Source of the DNA: a virus
Reading direction: 5' to 3' (one strand)
DNA length: 45,484 nucleotides
IMG/VR virus record: IMGVR_UViG_3300036851_000471
Span: 1 to 45,484 of that record
Positions 21,200 through 39,264 of the stretch are shown piece after piece; within the stretch, counting starts at the first letter, position 1, and every line of letters begins with the position of its first letter. The notes below the pieces were generated by a model. The model was not told the origin of the DNA and made no database searches. It saw nothing but the letters and a program-made list of their open reading frames with translations. The position numbers and the translations under genes were made by a program.

Positions 21200-24100
21200 T
21201 GGTCGATGATATCGACCGGCTCTTTGCGGCGCCAACACTACCGGAGCAGCCGCTACTCGATGAAATGGATGACGTCGATCGGCTCTTCTATGAGCCGCCA
21301 GCGGCCCCTGTTGAGGCTGCTCTTCCCCCGAAGAAACCTGGGCTCGTTAAGAGTACCGTAGTCGCTCCTGTTCGCGGTGGGGCGACGGCGATAGCCTCTG
21401 TGGGTCGTGGGTCGGAGCTTATCGACGAGACGCTCGGCCCGGCGGCGAGTGCCGCGCATAAGGCGACGCATCCCGGTTATGCTGTCGTTTCGACGCTCGC
21501 GGAAGTTCTTCGGAAGCCGGCGGAGAAATACGTCGAGACGCATCCCCGTGCGGTGGAGGATATCCTTGAACCGGGCTCGGCAATGGGCTTCCTCCAGGGG
21601 GCCCTCGAGCGAATTGGAGAGGTCGGCGGCCAGTTCGTTGCAATGCCAGCGGCCCCCTTACAGCATATCGGTGAGCAGGCAGAGACACTCGAGCGAAAGG
21701 AGATTAAGCCTACGCTCGCAAATGTTGCTATTCCGGCGGCGATTAACACCGGGCTTGATTACTTGGGCTTCCTCAAGGTGCTTAAGTTCGCTGGGATAAC
21801 AGGCGATGCCGCGGAAAAGACTGCGAAATCCCTGCGACAAGTCGGCGTGGATTACCTCACGACGACCGGAATTGAAACTGGCACGGAGGTCGTGCAGGAA
21901 CTTGTTACGCTCTACAATGCGAAGCTTCAGGCGGACGAGTCCTTAGCGCTGACGCCGGAGGAAAGGTATCAGCTGGTCCAAGTCGGCGTCGACACGATGA
22001 TCGGCATGGCCGGCTTGGGAGCGCCGAGTGCCTACTCGCAGGCGCGAGATGCGCAGCAGGGCGTCAATCCCGACGGCACGAATATCTTTGACAACGATCC
22101 GAAACTGAGCACCGAGCCGGGGGGAACTCCTCCGACGACGACAGAGGCTTCCTCCCTACCTCCGCCGTCGACGCCCGTCCTCCCGGCTCCCCTTACGGAG
22201 GGGGCACCTCCGCTAACCCCTGGAGTTACTCCAAATGCCGAAGCGCAAGAAAGGCAAGGGCAAGGACCGAGTTCCACCCCCGCCGTACCTCAGCAAGTAG
22301 CGACAACGGAGAAGCCGCCGGAGCCGATTGAGCCGGCGGCAACTCCTACTCCTTCCGAGGAAAAGCCAACTATCGGCAGCATGGGAGATATGGCCTTCAC
22401 GCAGTTGACGGAGGAGGAAAAGACATTCGCCTACGGGAAGACGGATTTGAACTTCGGTCCGTATGTGCAAATCGGGCCGCAGTTGGGAACGACTCTTGGC
22501 GGCAAGTTCATCGATATTGAGTCCGGCGATAAGTCCTACATCAAGTTCGACGACAATGCCGACCGCCTGAAGAATGAGGAACTGGCCGGGAAGCTCTACG
22601 AGTTGGCCGGCGTGCGGACACTCGAGCCGCGGATCGTCCCGGATGTGGAAGGGAAGCAGGCGCTTCAGACCTTTTGGGCAGAGGACCTCGGCTCGACTGA
22701 ACAGGTCGTTTGGAAAGCGAAGCGCGGGTTTGTCGTTGACGCCTGGCTCGCCAACTGGGATGTCGTTGGGCTCGACTTCACGAATATTCAAGCCGATCCT
22801 GCAGGGAACCTCGTTCGGACGGACGTAGGCGGCGCGCTGCGATATCGGGCGATGGGGGCTCCAAAGCCGCCGCTAACGGCGGAAGTGCAAGAGCTTACCT
22901 CTCTACGCGATCCAAATGTAAATCCACAGGCGGCGGCTGTTTTTGCGAATGTCACCTCGGCGGACATCGTACAGGGCGCGCAAGAGCTTGCAAAGATTTC
23001 GGACGATGATATTCGATCTCTTGTGATTCAGTATGGACCGGAAGGTGCGTTGCAGAAGGAAGGACTTGCAGACCTACTTATCGCCCGCAAGAGCTGGATC
23101 GTGGAGAATTGGGCAGTTAAGGAGCCAGAGGACAGCTACTTCAATGAGCCGGAGGACATTGACGAGGATGCAATCCCGGTCAACACGAAGCTGTCTACTG
23201 ATGATCCCTCGCTGTGGCCTGTCCCCCAGGCCGCGCAGACGGAGTTGGGCGGATCGCTTGACGAGGTGCATGCGGAGCTTATTAACGAGGTAGATGCTCA
23301 CCTTCGGTTCCTTTCGTTGCAGGGGAAGACGGCGCAAGGGCCGATCGAAGTTGCGGGAATGAAGACGAAGTCGATGGAGCCGAAATACTCCAAGGCTACG
23401 CCGTCGCTGTTCGACGGTGACGTGTCGGAGAAACACCTTCCGGCTGGTGGTGTTGTAGCTGGTCCGTACGATGCGGCTACTCATGCACCGGGCACAGTTG
23501 TCGAGATTGGAATCAAGGAGGCACTCGCCGAGAACCCCACGGCGCCAATCCGGTTCATCCGGCCGCTACTCGAGAATTTCATCAAGACTCTCGCCCCGGA
23601 TATGAAGGTCGTGCTGACGACTCTTCAGGTGCTCAACACGAAGACGAAAAAGCAGGAGCCCATCGGCAGCACCTGGGGGGCGCACGTTAGCTTCGATAAG
23701 GCGAACGGACTCGTCGCAATTGCGATCAATATCCCGGCGATTCAGGCATCGCCGCTCCTCAGCAAAGCGGATGCCGCAAAGCGGGAGGTTGCAGAGCGTC
23801 AGCTCCTGTTCGCCACGGTGGCGCATGAGTTCGGTCACGCCCTGATGAACAATGCGTTCTTCCGGGCGGCGAATTACACGAAGATCGCCGTGATGAAGGA
23901 GTACCGTACTTGGCTCTCCTTCATGAAGAACGCCTCGGTTGCGGAGTTCTATCGTGAGTTCCCGACGGGGCCGCACTCCGAGCTGATGCTCGACTTCATC
24001 AAGAAGGAGAAGCCGGGCGCCGCGACGATGAAGGTGCTCGACTACTTTAAGGAGGCGGACCTCAACTACGCGCTGTCCTTCAACGAGTGGTTTGCTATGC

Positions 24101-27100
24101 AGGTCGCGCGTTGGGCGACGCAGCGGCAGGAAATGCTCAGGGTTAAGACCGTTGATCCCGAGGCACGAAAGTTTTGGATCGGCGTGGCGGAGCTGCTGAA
24201 GCAGTTCTATACGAAGTTCCTGAAGAAGTTTGCTCCGAGCGGTACGATGGCGACGTATCTCGACGCGCTCGTTGCGGAGGTCCACGCGCAGGCGAAGGCG
24301 AAGGAACTAGGATTGACTCCTGGCACGCAGCGGGCGGCAGACCTTGGGCTCGCTGTTCCAAAGACTATCGTACAGACTTCTGGGAAGACGAAGAAGGGTA
24401 AGCCTCCGGCAGTCAAGACGGACGATACGCTGGCACCTAAGATGTTGGCAGCGCAGCGGCTCAAGAATCTCATGGCGTGGTTCGGCGACGGGGCTGTGAA
24501 GAAGGCCGACGGCACGCCGAAGCCGCTCTATCGTGGGCAGAAAGTTCTTACTCGCTACTTCAAACCGAGCAGCACTTACGCCCACGCGATTTTCCTGTCA
24601 GAGAAGAAGGGCTTCTCTGCCGGCTGGAAGTCGGCGCATCCGGAGATCGAGTGGGAACACGAGTACGACGACAAGATTCAGTGGTCCGACAAGTGGGGTC
24701 CGGAGAAGGGACTCTACAAGGTCTATACGAATATCAAGAATCCCTTCGACTTCCGCAATCCGCAGCATGTCGCCATGCTCGAGAAGAAGTTGAAGGACAA
24801 GAAGATCATCGCCGTCAAGCAACAGAGCGGCGGGACGCTTCCGGTCGCGTCGGCAATGAAAGCGGTGAAGGAAGGCGGCTGGCCTGTCCTCGAGGGACAG
24901 ACGGTACAGAACATCATCCGGTTTGAGCTTGGGCACGACGGTTTCTACATGCAGGAGGGTGGCGCCGTCAATCTCGGCGTCTACGACCCAACGAGTGTGA
25001 AGTCCGTTTCCGCGAACGTGGGGACGTTTAGTAAGGAACACGTCGAGCTAGATCTCCAGAGCGATCCGACGTCGCAGGGCGCACAGGACGCAAGGAACAC
25101 CGGAGCCACGCCGCGGATGGTTCGGGACGTGGATAACTTCACGTCAGCAAATGTGGGATGGGGTAAATTATGGGGCATAATTGATCCCCTAAACTTTCTC
25201 ACGCCGTTGCAGATTGCCGAGCGCTTCGGCATCAAGATGTTTAAGGAATACATCAATCGCGTGCAGCAGTACGCGAATACGAAGGCGAAGATTCAAGAGC
25301 AGGCCGCGGAGCTTACAGACGATGTGCGGAAGCTCTCGTCGGCGCAGAACCGCCGTTTGACGACCTTCACCTACGACGTCAGCACGTCGAGCGATGAACT
25401 CGGTCGTCGGCTCACGGAGGAGGAACTCGCCAAGCTCCGTCAGCGGCATGGCGTTACGGATCACGAGATGGAGATCTGGCGGAAGATCGACGCGTCGTTT
25501 ACGAAGGTCCTAACGGACTATGAAAGCGCGATGGTCTATGAGGCTGGCCGTCTGTTCACTCGAGACGGGAAGCAGTTCCGTCAGGCGTGGATCGCGGCAA
25601 AGGATCAGGCACAGCAGACAGCACTCATCAAGCTGCTCGCGAAGGATACGAAGGCCGGCACTGCCCTACTCGCGCAGATGAACAAGATTCAAGAGCAGTT
25701 CGGAAAGCTTCGGGAGAAGAACTACTTCCCGCGCTCACGCTTTGGCCAGTATGCGCTCCGGCTTGTGGCGACGCAGGACGGCGTGCAGTACGACGGCAAG
25801 ACGTTCAAGAAGGGCGAGACGATGGACTTCCGGCAGTACGAGTCCGAGAAGGACCGGCTGGCGGATGCGCGGCTCGTTAAGAGGGATGCACCAGCGGGTT
25901 CGCGCGTGAGCGTCGGGCTGATTGACGACACAACGTACTCCTTCATGGGCGTGCCACAGGTCGTCATTGAGATGCTCAAGAACAGCGATCTGTTGAATCT
26001 AACGGACGTGCAGAAGAACCGACTGAATGACATCGCGCTGTCGATGCTGCCTGGGCGCTCGTTCATGAAGCACCTCAAAGAGCGCAAGGGCGTCAAGGGC
26101 TATTCCGAGGATTTGCTCCGTACATACTCCAACTATATGCTCAAGGCCAGCGGGCACATCGCACGCGCGGAGCATGCACAGGACATGAGTGAGGCGCTTG
26201 CGCTCTTCAACGCGGAGACGAAGAGCTTACAGCTCGAGGACACAGATACACGGGACGCCCTGTTGTCCTACGGGAAGCGACATCTCGACTACTTGTTCAA
26301 TCCCGACAATGACCTCGCAGCGCTTCGCGCCATCGGCTTTCAGTGGTACCTGGGATTCAGCGTCAAGTCCGCCCTCGTGAACCTCACACAGGTTCCGCTC
26401 GTGACGTATCCCGTGCTCGCCGCCCGCTTCGGTGACGGAGCCGCGGTGAAGCAAATCACTCGGGCGTATAAGGACGTACGGCTCTCGCTGCACAAGATGA
26501 AACAGCTCGAAGCTCAAGTTGTTCAGGCACTCCAACAGGCTAACGCCGAAGGACTAACGAATGAATCCTTTGCGAATTCCCTCGCCGGCGCGGATGAGAA
26601 TATTGTCCTTCAGAATCTCGCGCCCAAGGGAGTCACGGATAGCATCTTGCAGAAGGCCACCTACTACGGCGGCTGGATGTTCCGGCACGCAGAAGAGTAC
26701 AACCGGCGGGTCACGCTCGTAGCCGGCATGCGCGCTGCGCTCGATGAAGGGTTGCCGTACGAGCAGGCGTACGCGGCGGCGAAGGAGGCGGTGCAGAAGT
26801 CGCAGTTCGAGTATGCGAAGTGGAATCGTCCGGAATTCATGCGTGGGAAGAAAAGCGCACTCTTTCTCTTCTGGCAGTACATTCAGCATGCGAGCTATCT
26901 CGCCTTTAATGGCGCGAATTCGAAGGAAGGGCGTCGGGCAGCGGTGCGGTATATGCTCCTGATGCTGCTCGTCGGCGGGACGCAGGGCCTCCCCTTTATG
27001 GAGACCTTGATGGACATCCTCGACTTCACGGGCACGAAAGCGAAGGAGCTGTTGGGGGTGTCGAATCCCCGTATGGCACTACGAGAGGATTTGCGCGAGC

Positions 27101-27900
27101 TGCTCGTGGAGTTGGACGTCAATCCTGACTTGGCGATGTATGGGCTCTCGAGTCACTACGGACTCGGGCCTCTGCACGCCCTGGGCCTGGCCGGCGTCCC
27201 TGTGCCCAACGTCGACATTAGCGGAAGCGTGTCGATGGGCCGGCCGATTCCGTGGTTTAATGATCTATTCACGGAGACGACGAACGTCGACGCGAAGGTT
27301 GGGAAGAACCTCTTGAACGTCCTCGGCCCGATCGCGGCAATCCCGTATCAGGTCATCCGGGCGGTGGAAAGTAACGATCCGAATACGTGGAAGAATGTAG
27401 AGCGCACGCTGCCGGTGTTCCTGAAGAACATCTCGAAGGGATATCGCTGGCTTTCGGAGGGACAGGAAACCTCGCTCGGAAGGGCAGAATTGATGAGCTT
27501 CACGGATACTCAAGGTCGCGCCGAGGCTATCGCACAGACCCTAGGCTTCACGCCGGCTCGTTTGAGCCGCAAGTACGACCTCATCGGTTCGCAGAAGGAA
27601 GCCAGTCTCTACTGGAACGTCAAGCGGAAGATGGTAATGGACGACATCGCCGATGCGTTTGCCTCGGGCGACCTGGACGCCATCAACGCGGCGATGCAGG
27701 AGATGCGGACCTTCAACTCCCAGCTGCACGACGTGCCGGAATTGCGCCCGCTGATGCTCTCCCCGCGCACGATCAAACGCAGTATGGATATGCGGGCTAA
27801 GTCCCGCCGGCAGCGGGAGATGGGACTTCCGGTAGAGCGGATGTACCGGCCACTATACCAGGAGATTGCAAAACAGCACCCCGGAGCGGATACACCATAA
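21199..27900 (+). CDS. Giant multidomain 'polyvalent-type' ejected protein (2233 aa)
   Basis: One reading frame of 2233 residues at the end of the virion operon. Seen in order: a disordered Pro-rich linker (about 290-390); a kinase-like region (about 415-620) with KSYIKFDD, VVDAWLANWDVVGLD and RTDVGGALRYRAMG; a zinc-metalloprotease motif HEFGH at residues 876-880; an ADP-ribosyltransferase-like region (about 1105-1280) from PLYRGQK to YDPTSVKSVSANVGTF; and a helical C-terminal half (1700-2200) resembling large-polyvalent-protein-associated domains. Co-injected polyvalent proteins combine such domains to counter host defence and aid entry. Assignment of each domain is inference from motifs. 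The gene contains operator copy 3, and its 3' end overlaps the opposing gene by 104 nt. It is not a recognisable N4-type virion RNA polymerase. Confidence 0.75.
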   Translation: MVDDIDRLFAAPTLPEQPLLDEMDDVDRLFYEPPAAPVEAALPPKKPGLVKSTVVAPVRGGATAIASVGRGSELIDETLGPAASAAHKATHPGYAVVSTLAEVLRKPAEKYVETHPRAVEDILEPGSAMGFLQGALERIGEVGGQFVAMPAAPLQHIGEQAETLERKEIKPTLANVAIPAAINTGLDYLGFLKVLKFAGITGDAAEKTAKSLRQVGVDYLTTTGIETGTEVVQELVTLYNAKLQADESLALTPEERYQLVQVGVDTMIGMAGLGAPSAYSQARDAQQGVNPDGTNIFDNDPKLSTEPGGTPPTTTEASSLPPPSTPVLPAPLTEGAPPLTPGVTPNAEAQERQGQGPSSTPAVPQQVATTEKPPEPIEPAATPTPSEEKPTIGSMGDMAFTQLTEEEKTFAYGKTDLNFGPYVQIGPQLGTTLGGKFIDIESGDKSYIKFDDNADRLKNEELAGKLYELAGVRTLEPRIVPDVEGKQALQTFWAEDLGSTEQVVWKAKRGFVVDAWLANWDVVGLDFTNIQADPAGNLVRTDVGGALRYRAMGAPKPPLTAEVQELTSLRDPNVNPQAAAVFANVTSADIVQGAQELAKISDDDIRSLVIQYGPEGALQKEGLADLLIARKSWIVENWAVKEPEDSYFNEPEDIDEDAIPVNTKLSTDDPSLWPVPQAAQTELGGSLDEVHAELINEVDAHLRFLSLQGKTAQGPIEVAGMKTKSMEPKYSKATPSLFDGDVSEKHLPAGGVVAGPYDAATHAPGTVVEIGIKEALAENPTAPIRFIRPLLENFIKTLAPDMKVVLTTLQVLNTKTKKQEPIGSTWGAHVSFDKANGLVAIAINIPAIQASPLLSKADAAKREVAERQLLFATVAHEFGHALMNNAFFRAANYTKIAVMKEYRTWLSFMKNASVAEFYREFPTGPHSELMLDFIKKEKPGAATMKVLDYFKEADLNYALSFNEWFAMQVARWATQRQEMLRVKTVDPEARKFWIGVAELLKQFYTKFLKKFAPSGTMATYLDALVAEVHAQAKAKELGLTPGTQRAADLGLAVPKTIVQTSGKTKKGKPPAVKTDDTLAPKMLAAQRLKNLMAWFGDGAVKKADGTPKPLYRGQKVLTRYFKPSSTYAHAIFLSEKKGFSAGWKSAHPEIEWEHEYDDKIQWSDKWGPEKGLYKVYTNIKNPFDFRNPQHVAMLEKKLKDKKIIAVKQQSGGTLPVASAMKAVKEGGWPVLEGQTVQNIIRFELGHDGFYMQEGGAVNLGVYDPTSVKSVSANVGTFSKEHVELDLQSDPTSQGAQDARNTGATPRMVRDVDNFTSANVGWGKLWGIIDPLNFLTPLQIAERFGIKMFKEYINRVQQYANTKAKIQEQAAELTDDVRKLSSAQNRRLTTFTYDVSTSSDELGRRLTEEELAKLRQRHGVTDHEMEIWRKIDASFTKVLTDYESAMVYEAGRLFTRDGKQFRQAWIAAKDQAQQTALIKLLAKDTKAGTALLAQMNKIQEQFGKLREKNYFPRSRFGQYALRLVATQDGVQYDGKTFKKGETMDFRQYESEKDRLADARLVKRDAPAGSRVSVGLIDDTTYSFMGVPQVVIEMLKNSDLLNLTDVQKNRLNDIALSMLPGRSFMKHLKERKGVKGYSEDLLRTYSNYMLKASGHIARAEHAQDMSEALALFNAETKSLQLEDTDTRDALLSYGKRHLDYLFNPDNDLAALRAIGFQWYLGFSVKSALVNLTQVPLVTYPVLAARFGDGAAVKQITRAYKDVRLSLHKMKQLEAQVVQALQQANAEGLTNESFANSLAGADENIVLQNLAPKGVTDSILQKATYYGGWMFRHAEEYNRRVTLVAGMRAALDEGLPYEQAYAAAKEAVQKSQFEYAKWNRPEFMRGKKSALFLFWQYIQHASYLAFNGANSKEGRRAAVRYMLLMLLVGGTQGLPFMETLMDILDFTGTKAKELLGVSNPRMALREDLRELLVELDVNPDLAMYGLSSHYGLGPLHALGLAGVPVPNVDISGSVSMGRPIPWFNDLFTETTNVDAKVGKNLLNVLGPIAAIPYQVIRAVESNDPNTWKNVERTLPVFLKNISKGYRWLSEGQETSLGRAELMSFTDTQGRAEAIAQTLGFTPARLSRKYDLIGSQKEASLYWNVKRKMVMDDIADAFASGDLDAINAAMQEMRTFNSQLHDVPELRPLMLSPRTIKRSMDMRAKSRRQREMGLPVERMYRPLYQEIAKQHPGADTP
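25160..25189. promoter_or_regulatory. Palindromic operator, copy 3 (inside the giant gene)
   Basis: GGGGTAAATTATG, GGG-type centre, then CATAATTGATCCCC. It lies within the coding sequence of the 2233-residue protein, so it may work as a stoperator-like roadblock rather than at a promoter. The dyad is nearly perfect (one inserted base). Confidence 0.6.
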
Positions 27901-29062
27901 GCTTCGATCCGAGCTGCCGCATCTCCATCTTCCCCGCGAACACCGCCGCGATACAACAAGCCTCGAAGGACTCATGTCCCATCCGCGTAGAAAGCTCGCA
28001 GTAAAGGTGCTGCTTCGTCGTGGCGCCGATCCGGTTGAGTACGGTGAGGAAGACTCCGAGGTCCTTGACGTCGTCCCGGTCTGTGATGGTGTCGAAGACC
28101 TTCGTCATATTTTCTTCGATTGTCCCGAGCATAGTGAGAGCCTTCTCGAAGTCCTCGGGCTGTATTAGCATGTCGTCTCGTTGCGCGGCCGAGAGGATCA
28201 TGGCAATCTTGTGCATGTGTGTCTGCTTGCGCGCAGAGTAGCCGGCGATACGGTCGCCTTTTAGGTGATCGGGAGTTTCAATCCAGTGGTCGTTATACCA
28301 CTTCTCGCCCAGAGCGTAGGCTTCTTTCGTAATCTGGAATCTGCCCCGCATTTTTGAGATGTGGATTAGGTCCTCGATCAATAGCTTGCGCTGGTCTTTG
28401 AACTCCACGGGGATGTGATTGCCGGGATAGGCCACGAGTTGATACTTCGAATCCGCGTAGACGAATACCGTGCGGGAAGTGAAGCCGCCGCCGATTGCGT
28501 ACTCGGGGATGTTCTCGCGAATCCAAGCGGGCGTGGTGCCGGCGATGATGTTGATCCAGGGATTGGGGATTACTTCCTCGCCGTCCATCTTCGTCCGCTT
28601 CGTCCACGGCACGTTGCGGCCGTCCCAGAGGTCGACGAGAACGTCGATCATCTCTCGGTTCCGCATGTCGAGAAAGGTGCCAAGCTCACTCGCGGCGATA
28701 GTAAGGCAGCTCATGGGGAAGAGCTCGCCCGTGCCCATATCTACCATTTCGGTCTTTTGCGAGAAGCTCTGGGTGAGGGCTTGCCACGTTACGGAGTCGG
28801 GGCCGAAATTAACTCCCGGCACCTGACGTAAGAGGTCCATTCCCACGCCGGAGGTGGTGGACTTGTTCACAATCCCAGGCGGTGCGACAAGTACGATGAA
28901 GAAATTGGGCTTCCATGTGAAGTAGCCCATGTCGACCCAACACTTGCCACGGAGTGCCCCCGCGAGGGTACTCACGGCGGTCCAGAAATGGAACTGTGGT
29001 GGCGCTTCGAGATGCTTCGTGTATTCGATATACGCCTGGATCCAGTCGCTATGGTGTCTCAC
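27797..29062 (-). CDS. Primase/helicase-like ATPase (DUF3987-like)
   Basis: A 421-residue protein. The N-terminus (FWTAVSTLAGALRGK, about 26-40) and a variant Walker A PPGIVNKSTT (61-70, Asn where Gly is usual) are typical of DUF3987-like D5-type phage replication ATPases. Downstream, LTIAASELGTFL (acidic Walker B-like) and NIIAGTTPAWIREN (sensor-like) follow. It is likely the replicative helicase of the module. Its start overlaps the DUF1937 gene by 14 nt, and its 3' end runs 104 nt into the opposing giant gene. Confidence 0.75.
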   Translation of the reverse strand: MRHHSDWIQAYIEYTKHLEAPPQFHFWTAVSTLAGALRGKCWVDMGYFTWKPNFFIVLVAPPGIVNKSTTSGVGMDLLRQVPGVNFGPDSVTWQALTQSFSQKTEMVDMGTGELFPMSCLTIAASELGTFLDMRNREMIDVLVDLWDGRNVPWTKRTKMDGEEVIPNPWINIIAGTTPAWIRENIPEYAIGGGFTSRTVFVYADSKYQLVAYPGNHIPVEFKDQRKLLIEDLIHISKMRGRFQITKEAYALGEKWYNDHWIETPDHLKGDRIAGYSARKQTHMHKIAMILSAAQRDDMLIQPEDFEKALTMLGTIEENMTKVFDTITDRDDVKDLGVFLTVLNRIGATTKQHLYCELSTRMGHESFEACCIAAVFAGKMEMRQLGSKLMVYPLRGAVLQSPGIVAGTSALPEVPSPAAGGT

Positions 29063-29402
29063 TCAACGCACCGCTGAGGTCGACATAGCGGACAGGCATG
29101 TCCTTAGACACGGCGTATTCGATCTCCAACCGCACGCCGGTGGATTGGTCCCAGCCGGGGAGCTTGAGTATCCACAATTCGTCCGCCGCCTTGATCATCG
29201 CGTGGTTGACCTTCTCCCAGAAGAAGTAATCTCCAGGCAGCTGGCACATGCGGGAGAGCGGGTGAAAGTGCAGGATTGGGGAGTATAGTGCCCTCCCCTC
29301 CCGACAGAACTTGGCGACGAACTGCGCTACGGCCTCGAAGCGGTCCTCGACTACCGCTGGGTCTTGCGAGGAATATGGTGATGCGATGTAGATGTAGCCC
29401 AT
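29049..29402 (-). CDS. DUF1937-like nucleoside 2-deoxyribosyltransferase-fold protein
   Basis: A 117-residue protein starting at ATG 29402, with GTGGAG upstream (a longer upstream start is less likely). The start MGYIYIASPYSS, the pair W..D..GV and E in RLEIEYA match the DUF1937 group, related to nucleoside deoxyribosyltransferases acting on nucleotide precursors. It starts 2 nt after the polymerase fragment ends. A role in DNA-precursor salvage or base modification is plausible but not shown. Confidence 0.7.
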   Translation of the reverse strand: MGYIYIASPYSSQDPAVVEDRFEAVAQFVAKFCREGRALYSPILHFHPLSRMCQLPGDYFFWEKVNHAMIKAADELWILKLPGWDQSTGVRLEIEYAVSKDMPVRYVDLSGALSETP

Positions 29403-29404
29403 TC

Positions 29405-30148
29405 TTATCTCCACTGAGTTTTCTGACAGTTGCCCCACGAGGCGGGGGAACACTTCAATCCCATTGGGATGATCAGCAGGTCGGGATAGGGAACGGGGAC
29501 TTTGGTAAGCTCGAAGGCAGTGGGAAGGACCAATGCTCGATCACTTTCACGGAGTTGGAATACAAGTGAATCGTGAACTTGGAGTAGGACTTGGATGATG
29601 GGAAGGTGAGTATCGAAAGCTTTCCAGATTCGGTTGATAACAAGAGCAACGGTGGATTGAGGAATCCAAGCAAGGGCCTCTTTGAGCAGCTTGTCGTCGA
29701 TGCGGGTGAGATATTTCCGTCGGTTGCCGAAGGCATTTCGCACCTCGCGGGTGGTTTGGAGTTGTTGTTCGATTCGATTGTGCCAGCGGGCGATGTCCGG
29801 GTGGGCGGCGAACCACGAGTCGATAAAGTGCTCGGCCTCGCGAAGGGAGATTTTAAGGATCGTGGATACGGTATTCGGTTGGGCTCCGTAATTCACCATG
29901 TGGACGCCCTGCTTGGCGCGGTAGTAGCGGATGTCGGAATTGTCCTCCTTGTCACAGCCGCCAAAGATGGCGATGGCATTTTCAAGGTGGAGATTTTTCC
30001 CTGAACGGAAGACTTCCTTTAGCTTTTCATCTCCGGCGTCCCACGCTACGACTTGCGCATCGGCCTTCGAAAGATCGCCTTCGAAGATAAAGTAGCCGGG
30101 GTCCGGGCGGAACAGCTTGCGGACGTTTGGAAGCTCAAGAGGTTGCAT
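29405..30148 (-). CDS. DNA polymerase A, C-terminal polymerase fragment
   Basis: A 247-residue protein with the catalytic palm and fingers of family A DNA polymerase: motif A GDLSKADAQ (Asp25), motif B K79...YG (QGVHMVNYG), motif C QVHDSLVF (His192-Asp193). It lacks exonuclease and N-terminal polymerase parts, which are in the upstream gene. The ATG overlaps that gene's stop (TAATG), with GGAGGG 6 nt upstream as its own ribosome-binding site. All polymerase residues are intact, so a two-chain enzyme is likely rather than a decayed gene. Confidence 0.85.
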   Translation of the reverse strand: MQPLELPNVRKLFRPDPGYFIFEGDLSKADAQVVAWDAGDEKLKEVFRSGKNLHLENAIAIFGGCDKEDNSDIRYYRAKQGVHMVNYGAQPNTVSTILKISLREAEHFIDSWFAAHPDIARWHNRIEQQLQTTREVRNAFGNRRKYLTRIDDKLLKEALAWIPQSTVALVINRIWKAFDTHLPIIQVLLQVHDSLVFQLRESDRALVLPTAFELTKVPVPYPDLLIIPMGLKCSPASWGNCQKTQWR

Positions 30149-31821
30149 TAGCCACCCTCCGGGATGTTCTGTAAGTTCAATCCATAGCCGAAGGCGTCCT
30201 TCGAGGAGGAGAGCCGGAACGTTTCCGTCCCGCCCAAGTTATACGAACAACGGACTTTTGAATCCGCTTCTACCCGAGCTGATACGAAGGTCGAGTAGAA
30301 AACCCCAAGGCTACGATACTCGAGGATACGCTTGCACAGCGGAGTTAGCAAGGGCTCCTTTCGCATGAGCTTGGTCAGGGCCTCATCGTCGGTGGACGGC
30401 TGACGAGTTTTACGATTGAGAATCGGATCGAATCCCAGGCAGGTGTAGAAGAGCGACGCAAGTTGCGTCGGCGAGCGGAAGAACGGCACCTTGCCCTTCG
30501 GCAGGATTCCCTCCGGGAGGATGGAGTGGAACCACGCTTCGTACTCGGACATCTTCGCCTGGAGGACGAGCGCGTATTCGCCGGCGAGCTTACGATCCCA
30601 TGTCACACCGCGGAGCATCGTGCGGAGGACTGGCTGGAACATCGACATCTGGAAGCAGTACTGCTCGTGGAGCTTTTCCCTCTGGATGATCTTCTCGATG
30701 TTCTCGCTGATTTCCCACGTTGAGACACAGTCCTTGCAGTTGTAAATCCACAGCTGCTCCTCTCCGACACCCGGTTCCCAGTCCTTCCCCTCATCCTTCC
30801 AATACATATGATAGTCGCAGTAGAGCGACGACAGCGTGTTGAGGTCCTTCGCCATGTCGCCAGGGAAAATCGTGTGCTGTGCAAGCATCGTGTCGCAATA
30901 CATGCTTATCAAGAAGTGCCAGAAGCGGGCGATATACTGCGAATCGTAGAGGAAGTTTTGGCCTACGATACGGGCATTGGGGTGCGTCAGGACATCACGC
31001 AGCGCAAGGATTATGGCGAATTCGGTCTCGAAGGGCCAATAGCCAGCGGGATTGTCCGTACACATGAGCGGGATGCACAGCGCCCGCGTCTTCGACGTCG
31101 CGATGCCGATGCAGGCGATGTGCCCGAGGCGAGTCTCAATGTCCACGGCGAGGCGCGTCGGGCCTGCGACGAGGTCTCGCTTAATGTCCGCAAGGAAGGC
31201 GAACACGGCGTCCTCGTTCGGCCTTACTGTGAAGTCAAAAGCAGGAGAAGGCCATGAGCCTTGCCTTAGCCCCATCATGGCCCGACGCAGATCATGGGTC
31301 AGCAGGATGCGCCATTGCCACTGGCGTAGCACGGCGGCTGGATGAATCGTTGGCAGTACCATTGGCAACGTCGGAAGAGAAGAAGCAAGAGAAGAGCGAA
31401 GATGCATCATCGAGCCGCGGTACTTCGTGATTCCGCTTTCGCCCGTCAGTGCCCAAAGGGCCGTGTCGCCGAGGGCGATGATTATTTTCGGTTTGACCTC
31501 CTCAATTTCGCGATTAAGTTCCAGAAGGCCAGATACAATATGAGGATGAGGATAGCGGTCGCCATAGGGAGCAATACCTCGCTTTTTCGCCTCGGTCTTT
31601 TTGTAGAAGAAATTGCCAATCTTATTCGCCGGCGGGCGATGGCGGCAGACATTCGTCACGAAGCACTGGCGTCGGTCGATCCCGGCTTCGCCTAGCATCC
31701 GCGTGAGTTCGATGCCGCTCGCGCCTACGAAGGGCTGGCCGGTTTCCTCCTCCGTCTCGCCGGGGGCTTCGCCGACGATCATTATCTCCGCGTCACGCGG
31801 TCCGCACGGGGACACCTTCAT
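30148..31821 (-). CDS. Uracil-DNA glycosylase fused to polymerase A exonuclease/N-terminal part
   Basis: A 557-residue fusion. Residues about 10-180 look like a family 4/5-type uracil-DNA glycosylase (GEAPGETEEETGQPFVG near 17-33, NVCRHRPP at 57-64, IALGD, and the HP motif at 160-161). The four Fe-S cysteines of classical family 4 are not all visible. Residues about 220-370 carry a 3'-5' exonuclease: VDIET (226-230), VGQNFLYD (286-293) and Y..KDC..T (360-368). The end (531-554: TETFRLSSS...NLQNIP) is the start of the polymerase domain, which stops just before motif A. The remainder is the next gene. Confidence 0.85.
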   Translation of the reverse strand: MKVSPCGPRDAEIMIVGEAPGETEEETGQPFVGASGIELTRMLGEAGIDRRQCFVTNVCRHRPPANKIGNFFYKKTEAKKRGIAPYGDRYPHPHIVSGLLELNREIEEVKPKIIIALGDTALWALTGESGITKYRGSMMHLRSSLASSLPTLPMVLPTIHPAAVLRQWQWRILLTHDLRRAMMGLRQGSWPSPAFDFTVRPNEDAVFAFLADIKRDLVAGPTRLAVDIETRLGHIACIGIATSKTRALCIPLMCTDNPAGYWPFETEFAIILALRDVLTHPNARIVGQNFLYDSQYIARFWHFLISMYCDTMLAQHTIFPGDMAKDLNTLSSLYCDYHMYWKDEGKDWEPGVGEEQLWIYNCKDCVSTWEISENIEKIIQREKLHEQYCFQMSMFQPVLRTMLRGVTWDRKLAGEYALVLQAKMSEYEAWFHSILPEGILPKGKVPFFRSPTQLASLFYTCLGFDPILNRKTRQPSTDDEALTKLMRKEPLLTPLCKRILEYRSLGVFYSTFVSARVEADSKVRCSYNLGGTETFRLSSSKDAFGYGLNLQNIPEGG

Positions 31822-33140
31822 GGCGCCACTTCCTTCCCGATCCCGGCGATTGTCTCAACGGACATGGCGTGATACTTCTCAGATATTTCAATTCCTGTCG
31901 CGCGGCATTTAAGTCTTGTCGCTGCCGGGAATATAGGCCCGCTCCCACAAAAAGGATCGAGCACGCTATCGCCAGGATTAACAGTTCTCTTGAGGAGATT
32001 GTGATAGACCTCGGAGGGCTTGCCGGCAGGATGGTCATGCTTTAGCTCCTGTGGGATGTCGATGACATCGTGATATAGGGCAGTAACCTTTCGCTGTCCC
32101 TTATTAGCGAAAAGGATACACTCGTATGTGTAGCGGGGTCCGAGCTCTGGGGAAGGATAAGCACCGACGTTTCCTTTGTACCAGATAAACGGACGCGGCC
32201 AGACGTCCCAGCCGGCGAGGGTGAAGAGGGCATTGAGCTTTTGAAAATTCGAAAGGTCACAGAATAGATACAAATGTGCCTGTCGTTTCGCCACTCGGAA
32301 AAAGTCGTCAGCGAGATGCTGAAAGAGAGTGAGGAAAGTTTCCGGCGAGTCGTCGTATTCATGCATGCTCCCGTCCCAGGATACGTCCTTGTGCATGTCG
32401 ACTCCATAGGGCGGGTCGGAGCAGATGACGTCGAAGGACTCGACTTCGAAGCGATGGACCTCCTGCCCGGCGTCGCCGCGAATGAGGAAGTGATCGCTCG
32501 AGGAAATGTCGATGGTCTTCCCGAGCTCGATGCGGTGGTTATCGGTGAGCTTCTTCTTGAGAATCTTCACGGCCTCGCGTTGGGACTTCGCCCGCTTCAC
32601 GTCGGGGTCGTCGAGATGCTTAACGAGGGCGATTGATTCCGATACCTCATTCGCCTCGCTGTTTAGGGCTGGAGCGCCCTTGATCTCCGACGCCGTATCG
32701 GCGTAGGTCCAGCCGGAACGACGGCCGCTGCCCCCAGTGCCGTGCTGTTCCTTCCGCATGGCGTCGAGTTCGGAGATGGCTCGAGCGCGCTCCTGCCATG
32801 TCAGGTCCACACGGAGGATGTTCTCCGTTAGCTCCGCCTCGCGGACACCGATTGGGTCGAGGTCGGAGATGGTGCTGAAGGGAATCTCGCCAGGCAGGAC
32901 ATGGCACCCGTCGTGAGTGATGGTAGAGCCAAGCTCGTGGAGTTCCTTCACGGCACGGAGACGGCGCTCACCAGCGACGAGATACCAAATGTCCTCTTCC
33001 TTGTTGTAGCGAATGACGATTGGGTGCAACAGCCCCTGCTTGAGGATGCCATTAGCCAGCTCGGTGATAGCGGCTGGCAGGAACTCCCGGCGCTGACGGT
33101 TATCGGCGACGACGATTCTATCGAGCGGAATTGTTTTCAT
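31818..33140 (-). CDS. ParB-like nuclease/CTPase-type domain fused to DNA methyltransferase
   Basis: A 440-residue protein. Residues 1-110 form a ParB/Srx domain with the LVAGERRLRA box (54-63) and N-terminal RIVVADNRQRR. Residues about 230-430 form a class beta DNA methyltransferase: DPPYG (242-246) precedes DPFCGSG (395-401), with a KP motif near 374. Such ParB-methyltransferase fusions are known in phages and may read or protect specific sites. Its start overlaps the preceding gene by 23 nt, and its stop overlaps the polymerase gene (ATGA). Confidence 0.85.
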   Translation of the reverse strand: MKTIPLDRIVVADNRQRREFLPAAITELANGILKQGLLHPIVIRYNKEEDIWYLVAGERRLRAVKELHELGSTITHDGCHVLPGEIPFSTISDLDPIGVREAELTENILRVDLTWQERARAISELDAMRKEQHGTGGSGRRSGWTYADTASEIKGAPALNSEANEVSESIALVKHLDDPDVKRAKSQREAVKILKKKLTDNHRIELGKTIDISSSDHFLIRGDAGQEVHRFEVESFDVICSDPPYGVDMHKDVSWDGSMHEYDDSPETFLTLFQHLADDFFRVAKRQAHLYLFCDLSNFQKLNALFTLAGWDVWPRPFIWYKGNVGAYPSPELGPRYTYECILFANKGQRKVTALYHDVIDIPQELKHDHPAGKPSEVYHNLLKRTVNPGDSVLDPFCGSGPIFPAATRLKCRATGIEISEKYHAMSVETIAGIGKEVAP

Positions 33141-34015: not shown

Positions 34016-34447
34016 TTAGAGTCGGGTGACGGCCTTCACGTCGACGTAGATTTGTCCCTGATCACCGATGCGGTGAGAGGTCCGAATCTTCGCCGCCTGG
34101 CCGACGAGCATGTTGAAGTTCCACGGGCGCGATGGGTCGTTCTGGCCCACCGCGTCGCGGAGCTTGCCGAGCTGCACGTTCTTGCCCTTGCCGAGATCGA
34201 TGTTGTCGGTCTCGGTGAGGTCCAGGAAAATGCTCTGGCGAACGACCGGCTCTTTCATGCCGGTGACTTCTGCTGCCTTCTCGTCCTGAACGCCCCATTG
34301 GACGTCCACGATCGTCTGGCCTCTCTCCGTCACCCGCGCGGTGACTTTCTTGATCTGCGCGGGGTATTCGCCTTCGGGTACGGGGGTGTACTCGGTCGAG
34401 TTGGCGCCGACGGTATCGGAATTGAGGAAGGAATCGAGATCGAACAT
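34016..34447 (-). CDS. DUF669-like ssDNA-binding protein
   Basis: A 143-residue protein. The N-terminal motif PVPEGEYPAQI and the following beta-rich OB-like body are typical of DUF669 proteins, which act as phage single-stranded DNA-binding proteins and pair with Sak4-type recombinases. The acidic N-terminus (MFDLDSFLNS) may contact the partner. GGAGAAAG precedes the ATG by 6 nt. A terminator follows 16 nt after the stop. Confidence 0.7.
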   Translation of the reverse strand: MFDLDSFLNSDTVGANSTEYTPVPEGEYPAQIKKVTARVTERGQTIVDVQWGVQDEKAAEVTGMKEPVVRQSIFLDLTETDNIDLGKGKNVQLGKLRDAVGQNDPSRPWNFNMLVGQAAKIRTSHRIGDQGQIYVDVKAVTRL

Positions 34448-34564
34448 TTGAACTTTCTCCGGTTAGTGACCTGGCTCTTCAGGACAGGCAGGTCAAGGTT
34501 CCTGTCGACGACGAGAAGGTGGGAGCCTCCCCGCCGTTTCGCCGCGAGTAGGGGAAACTGTGAA

Positions 34565-35431
34565 TTAACCTCCCGCGGGCGAAACCGAATAGAGCTTGCG
34601 CCATTTGTCAATGAGCGGCACGAAGCTCGGGGTGATCCCCTTCTGCCGGGGCATAAGCCGAGCCTTGGTCTGGATGTTGCCTTCCGCCGTGCTCCAGAGG
34701 AACTTGTCCCCTTCGAGGTAGGCGAAGATGACCTCGTCGAAGACTCTGGGTAACGTTGGGGCGAGCTTCTTTCCAAGTGTGGACAGCATGAGATCGATGC
34801 GGCCGGTGGTCTCGTCGCGCTCCGGCTCGATGTGGCCAGTGAGCAGGAAGTGTGCGTTCGTATCGCCGCAAATCTTCATGATGATGCGGGAAAGATTGTC
34901 CATTGCCATGCCCCACTGGGCCATTGACTTCATCGGCGAGCCACCCGCTACAAGGTCCAGTGCCATTGTGTTCAGGCCGGACATGGAATCGACCACTATC
35001 GCGCGCGAGGAATCCCATTTGGAGACGTCACCGAACTGCTCACCATTCTGATCGACGAAGTTGTTGAACTGCGTCACGAAGTCGATGAACTGCGAGTACT
35101 CGTTGCGGTTCAGTCCTTCCATCTTCTGGAGGGCGCTTTGGGAAAGCGTGTTCACCTTCCGCGCGTTGTCGATGATCGTGGCGAAAGAGGGCGCGGCGGG
35201 CGCGATGTAGCGATAGTGAAACTTGCTGGTGTCGATCTTGAAGTCGACGGCCGCCTGCATGATTGTGTTCAGACCACCCGGCTCCGTGAAGATCACGAAG
35301 ACCTCGAGGCCGGCTTGGAGCAGGGTGAGAATCGAGTGCGTCTTTCCGACGCCGTAGGAACCCATCAGGAGGATTTTCAATCCGGGCGGCATGGGTGCGG
35401 TGGACGGGACAACGGCGAGTTGGGCTGTCAT
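34565..35431 (-). CDS. Sak4-like RecA-family ATPase (recombinase)
   Basis: A 288-residue protein. Walker A GSYGVGKT (residues 24-31) and Walker B AIVVDS (144-149) sit in a P-loop ATPase core of the Sak4/AAA_24 group that catalyses single-strand annealing or strand exchange in phages. Direct neighbourhood with the DUF669-like ssDNA-binding gene supports this. It is preceded by operator copy 4 and the leftward promoter at 35500-35528, so it is a regulated first gene. Confidence 0.8.
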   Translation of the reverse strand: MTAQLAVVPSTAPMPPGLKILLMGSYGVGKTHSILTLLQAGLEVFVIFTEPGGLNTIMQAAVDFKIDTSKFHYRYIAPAAPSFATIIDNARKVNTLSQSALQKMEGLNRNEYSQFIDFVTQFNNFVDQNGEQFGDVSKWDSSRAIVVDSMSGLNTMALDLVAGGSPMKSMAQWGMAMDNLSRIIMKICGDTNAHFLLTGHIEPERDETTGRIDLMLSTLGKKLAPTLPRVFDEVIFAYLEGDKFLWSTAEGNIQTKARLMPRQKGITPSFVPLIDKWRKLYSVSPAGG

Positions 35432-35453
35432 GAAAAACTCCTGGTTCGGTTTG

Positions 35454-35484
35454 AGGGTAGAATTATTAGGGGGAAATATACCCT
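35454..35484. promoter_or_regulatory. Palindromic operator, copy 4
   Basis: AGGGTAGAATTATT ... AAATATACCCT around a G-rich centre. It lies between the promoter at 35500-35528 and the ATPase start, about where early transcribed sequence begins, so binding would block this promoter's transcription. A further AGGGTATA half-site overlaps the -10 side of the promoter. Confidence 0.65.
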
Positions 35485-35499
35485 AAAATTCATAGAGCG

Positions 35500-35528
35500 A
35501 GTATACCCTGCGCTTGGGGACAGGTCAA
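35500..35528 (-). promoter_or_regulatory. Leftward sigma70-type promoter for the ATPase/SSB genes
   Basis: Read on the - strand: TTGACC (35528-35523), 17-bp spacer, TATACT (35505-35500). Downstream are operator copy 4 and the ATPase gene at 35431. Confidence 0.8.
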
Positions 35529-35541
35529 GGCGGGCATCGAT

Positions 35542-35742
35542 TTATCTCCTTCGCACATATCGTTTCGTTCTCCTTTCCTCCGCTCGTTCTAGCGCCTGTA
35601 TCTGCTTTAGAAGGAAGTCAATAGCAATAGCAGAACGGAGCATAAGGTATGCCGTGACTTCCCAAGTCTCTGGCTCCTTTTCTACGGCGGCACGAAGGCA
35701 GGCGCTTAGTTCTTCCGCCTCTCTTATGCTACTCTCGCTCAC
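35542..35742 (-). CDS. Small helical hypothetical protein
   Basis: A 66-residue protein with a GTG start at 35742 preceded by GGGAGAAGG; a longer upstream start is less likely. It is helical and charged (SIREAEELSACLRAAVE, then IDFLLKQIQALERAEERR), with a very basic C-terminus. It overlaps the zinc-ribbon gene by 14 nt. Function unknown. Confidence 0.55.
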   Translation of the reverse strand: MSESSIREAEELSACLRAAVEKEPETWEVTAYLMLRSAIAIDFLLKQIQALERAEERRTKRYVRRR

Positions 35743-35902
35743 TAGCCTTCTCCCGTTCCTGATAGGCGTGGAGGGCATCAAGGCGAATGTCGTTGTGGTA
35801 GTTGTAGCGACAGGCCTTCGAGCAAAAGACTTGCCAGTAGCGTTTCGTCTCGAATGGAGACTGACACTTCTTGCAAATCAATTTTTGCTTTACTCGAGCC
35901 AT
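35729..35902 (-). CDS. Small zinc-ribbon-like protein
   Basis: A 57-residue protein. Two cysteine pairs (CKKC near residue 10-13, CSKAC near 27-31) form a treble-clef or zinc-ribbon pattern common in phage transcription and nucleic-acid-binding proteins. It has a TTGGAGG ribosome-binding site 10 nt upstream. Missed by a length cutoff but well supported. Confidence 0.7.
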   Translation of the reverse strand: MARVKQKLICKKCQSPFETKRYWQVFCSKACRYNYHNDIRLDALHAYQEREKASERE

Positions 35903-35922
35903 TCTACGACCTCCAAGGATAT

Positions 35923-35987
35923 GCGTTTATTTGCAATTGGATTGCTAGTGGGGCATTACCGCCGTCTAGGGTGTAAACGCAAATAAA
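35923..35987. repeat. TTTATTTGC inverted repeat upstream of the zinc-ribbon gene
   Basis: TTTATTTGC (35926-35934) pairs with GCAAATAAA (35979-35987). GCGTTTA (35923-35929) also pairs with TAAACGC (35974-35980). The AT-rich overlapping arms resemble a binding or melting site. It lies downstream of the leftward promoter at 36004. Confidence 0.5.
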
Positions 35988-36003
35988 TGGGTATTCCTTA
36001 TGT

Positions 36004-36031
36004 ATTATACGCATATAATGCGAGTACACAA
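36004..36031 (-). promoter_or_regulatory. Leftward sigma70-type promoter
   Basis: On the - strand: TTGTGT (36031-36026), 16-bp spacer, TATAAT (36009-36004). It reads into the zinc-ribbon gene at 35902. The -10 is part of a local dyad ATTATA-CGCA-TATAAT. Confidence 0.7.
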
Positions 36032-36041
36032 GTCAGTGGGG

Positions 36042-36422
36042 TCAGGCCGCGACGGCGGTCCCCGTTATCGACTCATCTTTTCTGCGAGCATTCCAAAAGA
36101 ACGCCAGCCAGTAGCGGTCACCCCACTCAACAGCCCGGAGGAACTCATATTGCAGCGCACGAAGTGGGGGCTGGTCCTCGCGGATGTCCGGCATGTCCTG
36201 ACAGCGGAGCGTTCCGTTGCCGTGCCGCAGGCAGTAACGATTCTCCCCGCAGGCGTCGTGGCCGTCGACGAGGATGCGCGCCCAGATGTCGGCGCACGCC
36301 GGACAGAAGTAAACGCGGCCGGGCGTCCTCCCACAGGTCCACGTTGGGTCGAGCAGCACGCGCCCCTCACCCATATACTCCTGGCCGACGAACCAGTGGG
36401 CGACGTACTCGTGCGTCAACAT
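36042..36422 (-). CDS. Hypothetical protein with cysteine pairs
   Basis: A 126-residue protein, ATG 36422, with GGAG 11 nt upstream. The centre has CGRTPG, CPAC and C..NRYC spacing, suggesting a zinc-binding treble clef. The rest is mixed charged and aromatic (YWLAFFWNARRK near the end). Function unknown. It overlaps the tiny membrane-peptide gene by 7 nt. Confidence 0.6.
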   Translation of the reverse strand: MLTHEYVAHWFVGQEYMGEGRVLLDPTWTCGRTPGRVYFCPACADIWARILVDGHDACGENRYCLRHGNGTLRCQDMPDIREDQPPLRALQYEFLRAVEWGDRYWLAFFWNARRKDESITGTAVAA

Positions 36423-36490
36423 GGAATGAACTCCAGTGCGGTGTCGATCACGACGGCGAAACAAAGGAGGAGGAACATGCCGAGTGTCAT
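36416..36490 (-). CDS. Tiny hydrophobic membrane-peptide gene
   Basis: A 24-residue predicted single-pass membrane peptide (core LGMFLLLCFAVVID). The start ATG overlaps the stop of the upstream gene (ATGA), and an AGGG sequence is just upstream. It fits the tightly coupled left-arm pattern, but coding status is unproven. Confidence 0.45.
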   Translation of the reverse strand: MTLGMFLLLCFAVVIDTALEFIPC

Positions 36491-36870
36491 AGTGTAGCCC
36501 TCACCAGTTGGTAGATTGCGCGTCCGGCCTGCCAGAGGATGAACCAAAGCAGGATGCAGATAGGAATTACCGTCCATAGGAGGTCGATTTTCCTAACTTT
36601 CTTGTACTTCCGCCAACCGATGAAGTCGTGAGTGAGCCAGCGGAGTTTCCGTTGGCGCCACGCCGCGATGGACGCAAGGTTCCGTTCGGACTTAAGATAG
36701 GTGCCGTGTTTGAGCCAGTAGCAATAGTCGTCGAGAGCTTGGTAGGCTTGCTCCTCGGAGAGGAACGGCCCGTGGAGTTCGGTCCAAGTTTCGTCGTAGA
36801 AGAACCAGCCCACATCGGTGTGGTCTGAGACTGCTGGATCGACCTTGACGCAAATGACTGGATCGCTCAT
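36487..36870 (-). CDS. Hypothetical protein with C-terminal TM segment
   Basis: A 127-residue protein starting at ATG 36870, which overlaps the upstream stop (ATGA) and follows GGAGAACAAA. The C-terminus has one membrane segment (LLWTVIPICILLWFILWQAG, about 101-120). The N-terminal half is acidic with W/Y. The first 15 bases match the DUF3310 gene start at 33563. Function unknown. Confidence 0.65.
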   Translation of the reverse strand: MSDPVICVKVDPAVSDHTDVGWFFYDETWTELHGPFLSEEQAYQALDDYCYWLKHGTYLKSERNLASIAAWRQRKLRWLTHDFIGWRKYKKVRKIDLLWTVIPICILLWFILWQAGRAIYQLVRATL

Positions 36871-37106
36871 TTTGTTCTCCATACTCGGACACCTTCAGGT
36901 ACTTGACGAACTGCGAATATCCAATCGGGATGATTGCGGAGCTTCCAAAAGCGTGCCGAGTAGCGCACTTGCTCCCGCATTCGGCGCCGTTCGTGAGATT
37001 GGCACGGCACGAGGAATGAGTCGCCCACTACCATGACCTTAAATGGATACGGTGTGGGCTGCGCCCGTCCCACTACCGGCATGTTCTTCTCGATGACGTA
37101 TGTCAT
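36867..37106 (-). CDS. Hypothetical phage protein
   Basis: A 79-residue protein. Central FKVMVVGDSFLVPC followed by a basic RRRMREQVRY stretch recurs in small phage proteins of unknown function. The stop couples to the next gene (ATGA). There is no recognised catalytic residue set. Confidence 0.6.
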   Translation of the reverse strand: MTYVIEKNMPVVGRAQPTPYPFKVMVVGDSFLVPCQSHERRRMREQVRYSARFWKLRNHPDWIFAVRQVPEGVRVWRTK

Positions 37107-37621
37107 TTCCGGAGGAACACCGGCGCAGGCGGGGCTGCGGCTATGTCGCTTACTAACTCGAATAGAACTCTACGTAACCAGTCACGGCGGGCGTCCATGC
37201 TCGATATTGAAAATTTTTGGCCGTCGGGCTTTGTGACTGTGAACGTATGCGACAGCAGATCCTCGTGGTCGAATCGTTCTACTCGCCACCCCACTGCGGG
37301 CCGCTTGGCGTCAAGCTGCCTGATGCGGGCGATGGCGTCATTCAGTTCGCGCTCAAGCTGTTTCGCAAGAGCGAGCATTTCATCTTTGTCAAAATATGGC
37401 ACCTGTTTACAATCTGGCAGGCAGCCTTCGACCATACTCACAAGGGAGTCTACTCGCGGCGTTGCATCCGCCGTCATCGCATCCGCAGGGGGTGGGGTTG
37501 TGGACTTTTGAATTCTTATGGCGGCTTTCAGGTTTATCCAATCAACGCACATCGTTAGTGGGCCGCCCTCAGATTCAAACGGGTAACTTTCTATTTTCTG
37601 TATCAGAGCCTCGAAGTTCAT
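37103..37621 (-). CDS. Hypothetical protein
   Basis: A 172-residue protein starting at ATG 37621, which overlaps the upstream stop (ATGA). It is acidic/helical in the middle (EMLALAKQLERELNDAIARIRQL, coiled-coil like) with a beta-rich C-terminal segment (HTFTVTKPDGQKFSISS). No family recognised. Sequence around here is less tightly packed in codon use than the replication core, so it may be an accessory gene. Confidence 0.55.
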   Translation of the reverse strand: MNFEALIQKIESYPFESEGGPLTMCVDWINLKAAIRIQKSTTPPPADAMTADATPRVDSLVSMVEGCLPDCKQVPYFDKDEMLALAKQLERELNDAIARIRQLDAKRPAVGWRVERFDHEDLLSHTFTVTKPDGQKFSISSMDARRDWLRRVLFELVSDIAAAPPAPVFLRK

Positions 37622-37797
37622 GTCCGATACTCTTTCCACTCGATTTCATTTTCAGACACGACTACGCCGTGTGTGTAGTCGCCGTTGTAGGCGCCCATAC
37701 GAACAAGCCCGGCACCTTTTGCATCTGAGCAAAAACCGAAGCTCCACTCCTTGTCTCCTTTGAAGCGCCACCAGACCATTCCGTTCGGTGTGGTCAT
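37618..37797 (-). CDS. Small hypothetical protein
   Basis: A 59-residue protein, ATG 37797, flanked on both sides by ATGA overlaps with its neighbours, which strongly supports coding. Beta-rich with several Trp/Tyr (MVWWRFKGDKEWSFGFC, YNGDYTHGVVV). Function unknown. Confidence 0.6.
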   Translation of the reverse strand: MTTPNGMVWWRFKGDKEWSFGFCSDAKGAGLVRMGAYNGDYTHGVVVSENEIEWKEYRT

Positions 37798-38081
37798 GAC
37801 ACAGCCCTCACAATTCCGGTGACGGTGCCAGCCCTTTCGTTTGCGTACTCGCTGGCGTCGAGTATGGACATGGTTTCTAGCGGCGACTCAATGTCCGCGT
37901 TACGGATCATTTCGATAGCCAGATCAACACCCATGCCGTAATAGCCTTCGGCGCGAGCCTCAAAGGACAGCGAGTTCAGGCGTGAGATTAATCGCGGACG
38001 CTCAACCTTCATGCGCTCAACCGAACCCGGAGCGCCAACAGCGAAGACAGACTGGCCGTAGTCGTTCGTTATGTAGTTCAC
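37794..38081 (-). CDS. Hypothetical protein
   Basis: A 95-residue protein with GTG start at 38081, overlapping the previous stop (GTGA) and preceded by GGGGAGG. An earlier upstream start would use an unsupported extension. Helical C-terminus (LAIEMIRNADIES), acidic. No recognised family. Confidence 0.55.
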   Translation of the reverse strand: MNYITNDYGQSVFAVGAPGSVERMKVERPRLISRLNSLSFEARAEGYYGMGVDLAIEMIRNADIESPLETMSILDASEYANERAGTVTGIVRAVS

Positions 38082-39064: not shown

Positions 39065-39264
39065 GCTGCCTCCCAGAGGACATCTTTTAGGACGAGTTTT
39101 CGCAACCGTAGGACGTCCTTTGCACGGTAGTCTCGAAAGGCATCGAGCAATTGTCCATCCTTCAAGTCGACGTTCCTTCCATAGACTGACAACCCTAGGT
39201 CTTTTTCGAGGTGCTTGATAACTCGCGCAACTGTCTTTTCTGCCGGCCAACGATTCGTGCTCAT
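39061..39264 (-). CDS. Small hypothetical protein
   Basis: A 67-residue protein starting at ATG 39264 (ATGA overlap with the nuclease stop). Charged, with a helical stretch (KTVARVIKHLEKDLGL) and a basic C-terminal helix. An extended frame into the nuclease gene is unsupported. Function unknown. Confidence 0.55.
   Translation of the reverse strand: MSTNRWPAEKTVARVIKHLEKDLGLSVYGRNVDLKDGQLLDAFRDYRAKDVLRLRKLVLKDVLWEAA

Follow-up and report, generated by a model that had tools for sequence, protein, structure and literature searches.

A Phage Family A DNA Polymerase Encoded as Two Overlapping Reading Frames, and the Recurrence of Its Break Site among Relatives

Naturally split phage polymerases are already known. 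The T4-like Aeromonas phages 44RR and 25 encode a family B polymerase as two chains, 43A and 43B, which reportedly co-purify and are active; a homing endonuclease is associated with the split in one phage (PMC2988022). In the OM43 phages MEP401 and MEP402, a family A polymerase (PolA) occupies two open reading frames (ORFs) with a small ORF between them, and the authors suspected an intron (PMC10580990). Essential phage enzymes of another kind can also be made as two chains. For example, the ribonucleotide reductase (RNR) gene nrdA of Aeh1 was split by insertion of the homing endonuclease gene mobE and kept its function (PMC2988022). Bacillus phage SPO1 gp31 is a fusion of a uracil-DNA glycosylase (UDG) with PolA in which a homing element adjoins the NLQNIP region.

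Here, we describe a UDG-PolA gene that is read as two ORFs in the window, a 45,484-nt viral DNA stretch (IMG/VR record IMGVR_UViG_3300036851_000471, positions 1 to 45,484), and compare it with its relatives. As with 43A/43B, a phage replicative polymerase is laid out as two ORFs; in contrast to the window, 43A/43B belongs to family B, is broken elsewhere, lacks a UDG, and is not presented as a recurrent same-site split with metabolic cargo (PMC2988022). The MEP401/402 gene (locus L169) is likewise a PolA broken between NLQN and motif A, but its break lies about 14 residues downstream of that in the window (its first chain ends in NLQNFDGEIKTLFLSRYGE and its second starts with MILNADAKALEW) and it has no UDG; the window shows neither a break just before motif A nor the absence of a UDG. 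In SPO1 gp31, unlike the window, a group I intron that carries an HNH gene is spliced out to give a single polypeptide, and the insertion is about 10 residues upstream of the break. This stretch of the gene is thus a long-known neighbourhood of homing elements. There is also a sequenced isolate, Vibrio phage vB_VspS_VS-ABTNL-3 (VS-ABTNL-3; PVS_29/PVS_28/PVS_27, MF497422), whose UDG-exonuclease-PolA is broken at the loop used in the window (NLQNLPKGDG, then a stop, with TAATG), although here a 184-aa gene separates the halves and the three were deposited as separate genes. In open-licence papers we found no description of a split UDG-PolA, of a split recurring at the same loop with changing cargo, or of dUTPase cargo.

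Two chains and their junction in the window

The polymerase lies on the minus strand, which the earlier note on this locus had not stated. Its parts are as follows.

31818..33140, minus strand: upstream gene with a ParB-like N-terminus and an N6/N4 DNA methyltransferase domain, overlapping the chain N start as ATGA
30148..31821, minus strand: chain N, 557 aa, with UDG domain, 3'-5' exonuclease, thumb, and first part of the palm; C-terminus NLQNIPEGG, then a stop
31315..31803, minus strand: family-4-type UDG domain, residues 7-169 (PF03167, 1.9e-27), with a GEAPGETEE...GQPFVG motif
30685..31188, minus strand: 3'-5' exonuclease domain, residues 212-379 (PF01612, DNA_pol_A_exo1, 1e-9), with DIET, NFLYD, and YNCKD motifs
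30160..30480, minus strand: first part of the polymerase domain, residues 448-554, up to NLQNIP (PF00476 profile positions 32-132)
30155..30160, minus strand: Shine-Dalgarno-like GGAGGG within the last chain N codons (P-E-G-G), also compared with relatives
30146..30150, minus strand: TAATG, in which the chain N stop and the chain C start share one base; the same overlap, or ATGA or TGATG, occurs in relatives
29405..30148, minus strand: chain C, 247 aa, with the remainder of the palm and the fingers; motif A Asp25, O-helix Lys79/Tyr87, motif C His192-Asp193

Chain N covers positions 32-132 of the 381-position Pfam profile DNA_pol_A (PF00476) and chain C covers positions 140-347 (3e-25). Since the matches are to successive segments of one profile, the ORFs encode a single family A polymerase between them, one part after the other. 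The junction, AACTTACAGAACATCCCGGAGGGTGGCTAATGCAACCT on the minus strand, reads NLQNIP-E-G-G-stop, with GGAGGG at 30160-30155 and a spacing of 6 nt to the chain C ATG. The earlier note had described this anatomy correctly: a 557-residue chain ending after NLQNIP, a next gene that begins TAATG and bears motifs A, B, and C, and a strong GGAGGG 6 nt upstream of the second ATG.

That note also placed a glycosylase in front of the polymerase, where Pfam indeed finds the UDG domain, with the GEAPGxxE...PFVG motif of the superfamily; the best PDB profile matches of the domain are UDGs, several of them named type-4. The four Fe-S cysteines of family 4 UDGs are absent, the first 200 residues of chain N having only Cys6, Cys53, and Cys59. 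As these usual cysteines are missing, uracil excision by chain N is putative. The UDG fusion is not peculiar to the window phage, as nearly all relatives (126 of 130 loci compared for the domain) and SPO1 gp31 carry one. Three of the four loci without a UDG are contig fragments or truncated, and the remaining one (L053) may lack it. The exonuclease DxE, NxxxD, and YxxxD signatures are present in chain N as DIET, NFLYD, and YNCKD.

A break within the palm domain could inactivate the polymerase, in which case the gene would be decaying and a host enzyme would replicate the phage. This is very unlikely, because even divergent split loci retain the catalytic residues in both halves and the splits persist in well-supported clades made up entirely of split loci. 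Asp25, Lys79, Tyr87, and His192-Asp193 are all present in the window; across 35 split chain C sequences, Asp25 and His192-Asp193 are invariant and Lys79 and Tyr87 are conserved at 90% or more. Chain C modelled alone (pLDDT 96.7) matches Bacillus Pol I (3hpo) with a Z of 24.5 and an rmsd of 2.0 over 236 residues, and is thus predicted to have the Pol I palm/fingers fold. A fused relative (L089) was modelled with AlphaFold from a 33-row alignment (mean pLDDT 93.2), and Foldseek matched the model to Pol I structures. Its pLDDT is lowest in two ten-residue blocks (66 and 71) that make up residues 541-560 and contain NLQNIPKGGEAASGLDLPN, the break point. The break is therefore predicted to sit in the least confident, flexible loop of the fold.

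The polymerase is very probably a genuine two-polypeptide enzyme, in which initiation of the second chain is coupled to termination of the first at a Shine-Dalgarno encoded by the loop and the chains assemble non-covalently. Translation of a single mRNA up to the first stop would give the UDG-exonuclease-thumb chain. At the overlapping ATG, that ribosome or one close by would then initiate the palm/fingers chain, with its catalytic aspartates, by means of the Shine-Dalgarno that the Pro-x-Gly codons of the loop encode. Assembly of the two chains would centre on the conserved palm core, with the break placed in a flexible loop. An RNA hairpin that pairs GGAGG with a downstream CCUC and covers the Shine-Dalgarno and ATG shows no extra stability over shuffled sequences (z 0.12), so that structure-dependent coupling at the window junction is not supported.

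Split and fused relatives

Single-sequence scans of viral contigs with either chain returned no relatives, and megablast of the whole window (first 25 kb) against phage records gave no match. With tblastn, three phage records matched both chains at roughly 37-48% identity: Manatee Spring phage MW202489 and Microcystis phage Mel-JY34, which have a one-chain polymerase, and VS-ABTNL-3, whose TAATG junction is followed by the 184-aa gene and then the palm gene. Profile scans of IMG/VR with a four-sequence alignment per half yielded 160 loci (best 80 hits per scan). After repeated contigs and near-identical genes were dropped, and with the window and the fetched phage records included, 133 distinct loci or records remained, of which 86 are fused and 47 are split at one loop; these are the best-scoring hits to the window plus phage records, and the ratio is not a population frequency. 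All 47 breaks fall just past NLQN(I/L/W/S)(P/T/S)xG, within a span of about 25 residues, and chain C restarts a few residues ahead of LPN(V/I)R. The earlier note had proposed a comparison with relatives for the same split, and 46 others, the isolate among them, share the break loop. It had also counted unsplit relatives against its reading; most of those retrieved are unsplit, yet with 46 others split the reading is not refuted.

Four contigs assigned to bacterial or archaeal MAGs also carry this polymerase. In two of the four it is split, and the intervening genes are a Lon-like gene and a class II RNR. These two (L172 and L173, in Ignavibacteria and Dokdonella bins) are probably phage contigs or prophages and give a hint of the host. 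Caulobacter phage Kuura (L004:4977-8381) has a related UDG-PolA that is split at a different site, within the exonuclease domain, and its parts are separated by two small ORFs.

The recurrence bears on whether the split is an artifact, that is, an intact gene divided by a single-base indel introduced in sequencing or assembly. The window is a single contig and many relatives are fused, as such an error would have it. The 46 other distinct loci, from many metagenomes and an isolate, nevertheless share the break loop, the ATGA, TAATG, or TGATG overlaps, and the Shine-Dalgarno, and 36 of the 46 have a measurable insert or other gap beyond about 60 nt. We consider an error extremely unlikely.

Counting ORFs of at least 45 codons, a start codon overlaps the chain N stop, or is no more than 5 nt away from it, in 36 of the 47 split loci. 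The overlap is ATGA or GTGA in 22 of these and TAATG or TGATG, the type seen in the window, in seven. The start is that of chain C itself in 11 loci that have no insert, the window among them, and elsewhere it is usually that of the first inserted gene. The Shine-Dalgarno is formed by the last codons of chain N, which specify Pro-Lys-Gly-Asp and variants (CCN AAR GGN GAY). GGAG occurs in the loop codons of 31 of 47 split loci vs 25 of 80 fused ones (Fisher p=2e-4, a test that ignores relatedness), and the mean duplex energy of the Shine-Dalgarno differs weakly between the two groups (p=0.02). In fused relatives, the codons of the PKGG or PKGD loop read AAGGxGG or AAGGxGA, PKGG genes often containing AAGGxGG. 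Because these loops already contain Shine-Dalgarno-like codons, part of the ribosome site is already in place before any split. The earlier note had called the break designed reinitiation and not a random stop. Coupled reinitiation is in keeping with the recurrence of the Shine-Dalgarno and overlap at the junction, while the word "designed" goes too far, given such codons in fused relatives.

Programmed -1 ribosomal frameshifting could instead yield a full-length chain besides the short one. It is formally possible in the window genome, where the frame of chain C is -1 relative to chain N and is open for 88 nt upstream of the chain N stop. The frame overlap, however, contains no slippery heptamer of the form X XXY YYZ, as the earlier note had already remarked. 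Across loci, all three frames are represented for the chain C start relative to chain N, and the chain C frame is closed within 4 nt before the chain N stop in five of the 11 no-insert loci (L010, L023, L028, L033, and L053), so frameshifting cannot be the general mechanism. In other loci, whole genes separate the halves. Frameshifting is thus highly improbable, and chain C would most simply be made by coupled initiation or reinitiation, rather than through a random stop or a frameshift. Locus L057 alone has two formal slippery heptamers.

The split/fused label changes 14-15 times on FastTree and IQ-TREE trees, with 10-11 changes forced by well-supported branches, and eight changes are forced on trees of each half alone. 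Constraining all splits to one clade is worse by 859 log units (AU p=3e-6). The splits are therefore rejected as one clade, and at least about 8-11 changes have occurred. Each change could be a split or a re-fusion through recombination with a fused homologue, and both kinds may have occurred. Rooting on distant phage polymerases that are fused (Desulfofustis phage, vir526) favours a fused ancestor, with the two outgroup rows not cleanly grouped; a count made after weak branches were collapsed, which gives the same 14 changes as the uncollapsed tree, is given no weight here. It appears that the loop was broken many times across the phage group, which would be because a cut is tolerated there and because its codons are already similar to a ribosome-binding site.

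Genes inserted between the halves

The gap between the halves ranges from nothing, in the 11 loci that include the window, to about 2.8 kb. The inserted genes recognized with Pfam and PHROGs are as follows.

L047, L065, L068, L078, L081, L083: dUTPase
L022, L031, L032, L133, L157: HNH endonuclease
L014, L049, L072: MazG-like pyrophosphatase
L076, L173: class II RNR
L030, L066: methyltransferase
L011, L012: DUF7768
L019: DnaQ-like exonuclease
L070: Lon_C
L047: DUF3310

HNH genes within several inserts, together with the intron and homing endonuclease of SPO1 gp31, a distant UDG-PolA, raise the idea that the halves are rejoined, as RNA by a group I intron or as protein by a split intein. Against an intron, the window has no intervening sequence at its junction, and Rfam found none in the 35 related split or MAG loci scanned. 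Against an intein, both chains have their own start and stop and end within a few residues of conserved motifs (chain N stops three residues past NLQNIP and chain C begins five residues before LPNVR), leaving no room for an intein domain. Either form of rejoining has a close to negligible probability, and the two-polypeptide enzyme remains the preferred reading.

Some loci offer a closer view of the insertions. L022 and L023 have flanks that are 88-90% identical on both sides and differ by one extra HNH gene between the L022 halves; an ATGA start opens chain C in L023 but the HNH gene in L022. This difference at the coupled start codon marks a gene gained or lost recently. The HNH gene of L133 (L133:7843-8331) opens with MPMPNI, which is the chain C start, and chain C restarts as MPLPNIRS at the 3' end of the HNH gene. 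It is as if the endonuclease gene had entered just inside chain C, with MPMPNI copied or captured.

An opened junction would accept genes, among them those for HNH homing endonucleases, dUTPase, and RNR, and their starts would come to occupy the coupled position. It is possible, though we lean slightly against it, that the post-NLQNIP loop of UDG-PolA is a recurrent gene-docking site in a broad phage group, its codons serving as a ready-made ribosome-binding site. Genes that serve nucleotide supply and DNA handling (dUTPase, RNR, pyrophosphatase, and methyltransferase) would then enter after or with HNH endonucleases and have their translation coupled to the first chain.

The family-wide pattern is of more interest than the single case in the window. 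One replicative enzyme has been broken at a single loop on what appear to be many separate occasions, and near-identical pairs of loci differ in nothing but the inserted gene, which amounts to a natural experiment. The fission of essential genes, colonisation by homing endonucleases, and the tolerance of a polymerase for a two-chain build thereby become testable, and the break point is a natural site for two-part family A polymerases.

Where a dUTPase lies between the halves of a UDG-bearing polymerase, two uracil-avoidance functions share one translational unit.

Gene neighbourhood of the split polymerase

Other genes around the polymerase in the window are as follows.

29049..29453, minus strand: downstream nucleoside 2-deoxyribosyltransferase-like gene (DUF1937/DUF7768)
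27797..29062, minus strand: downstream DNA primase-like gene (DUF3987, phrog_14296), in an order common to relatives
34016-34447, minus strand: SSB-like gene
34565-35431, minus strand: Sak4-like annealing protein gene
39261-40214, minus strand: exonuclease gene

The SSB-like, Sak4-like, and exonuclease genes form a phage replication and recombination block (34016-40214, minus strand). Methyltransferase genes also precede the polymerase in relatives L001-L003. On the plus strand, positions 21199-27900 hold a single ORF of 2233 residues that faces the replication genes, and in several relatives, too, the primase is followed by large genes on the opposite strand.
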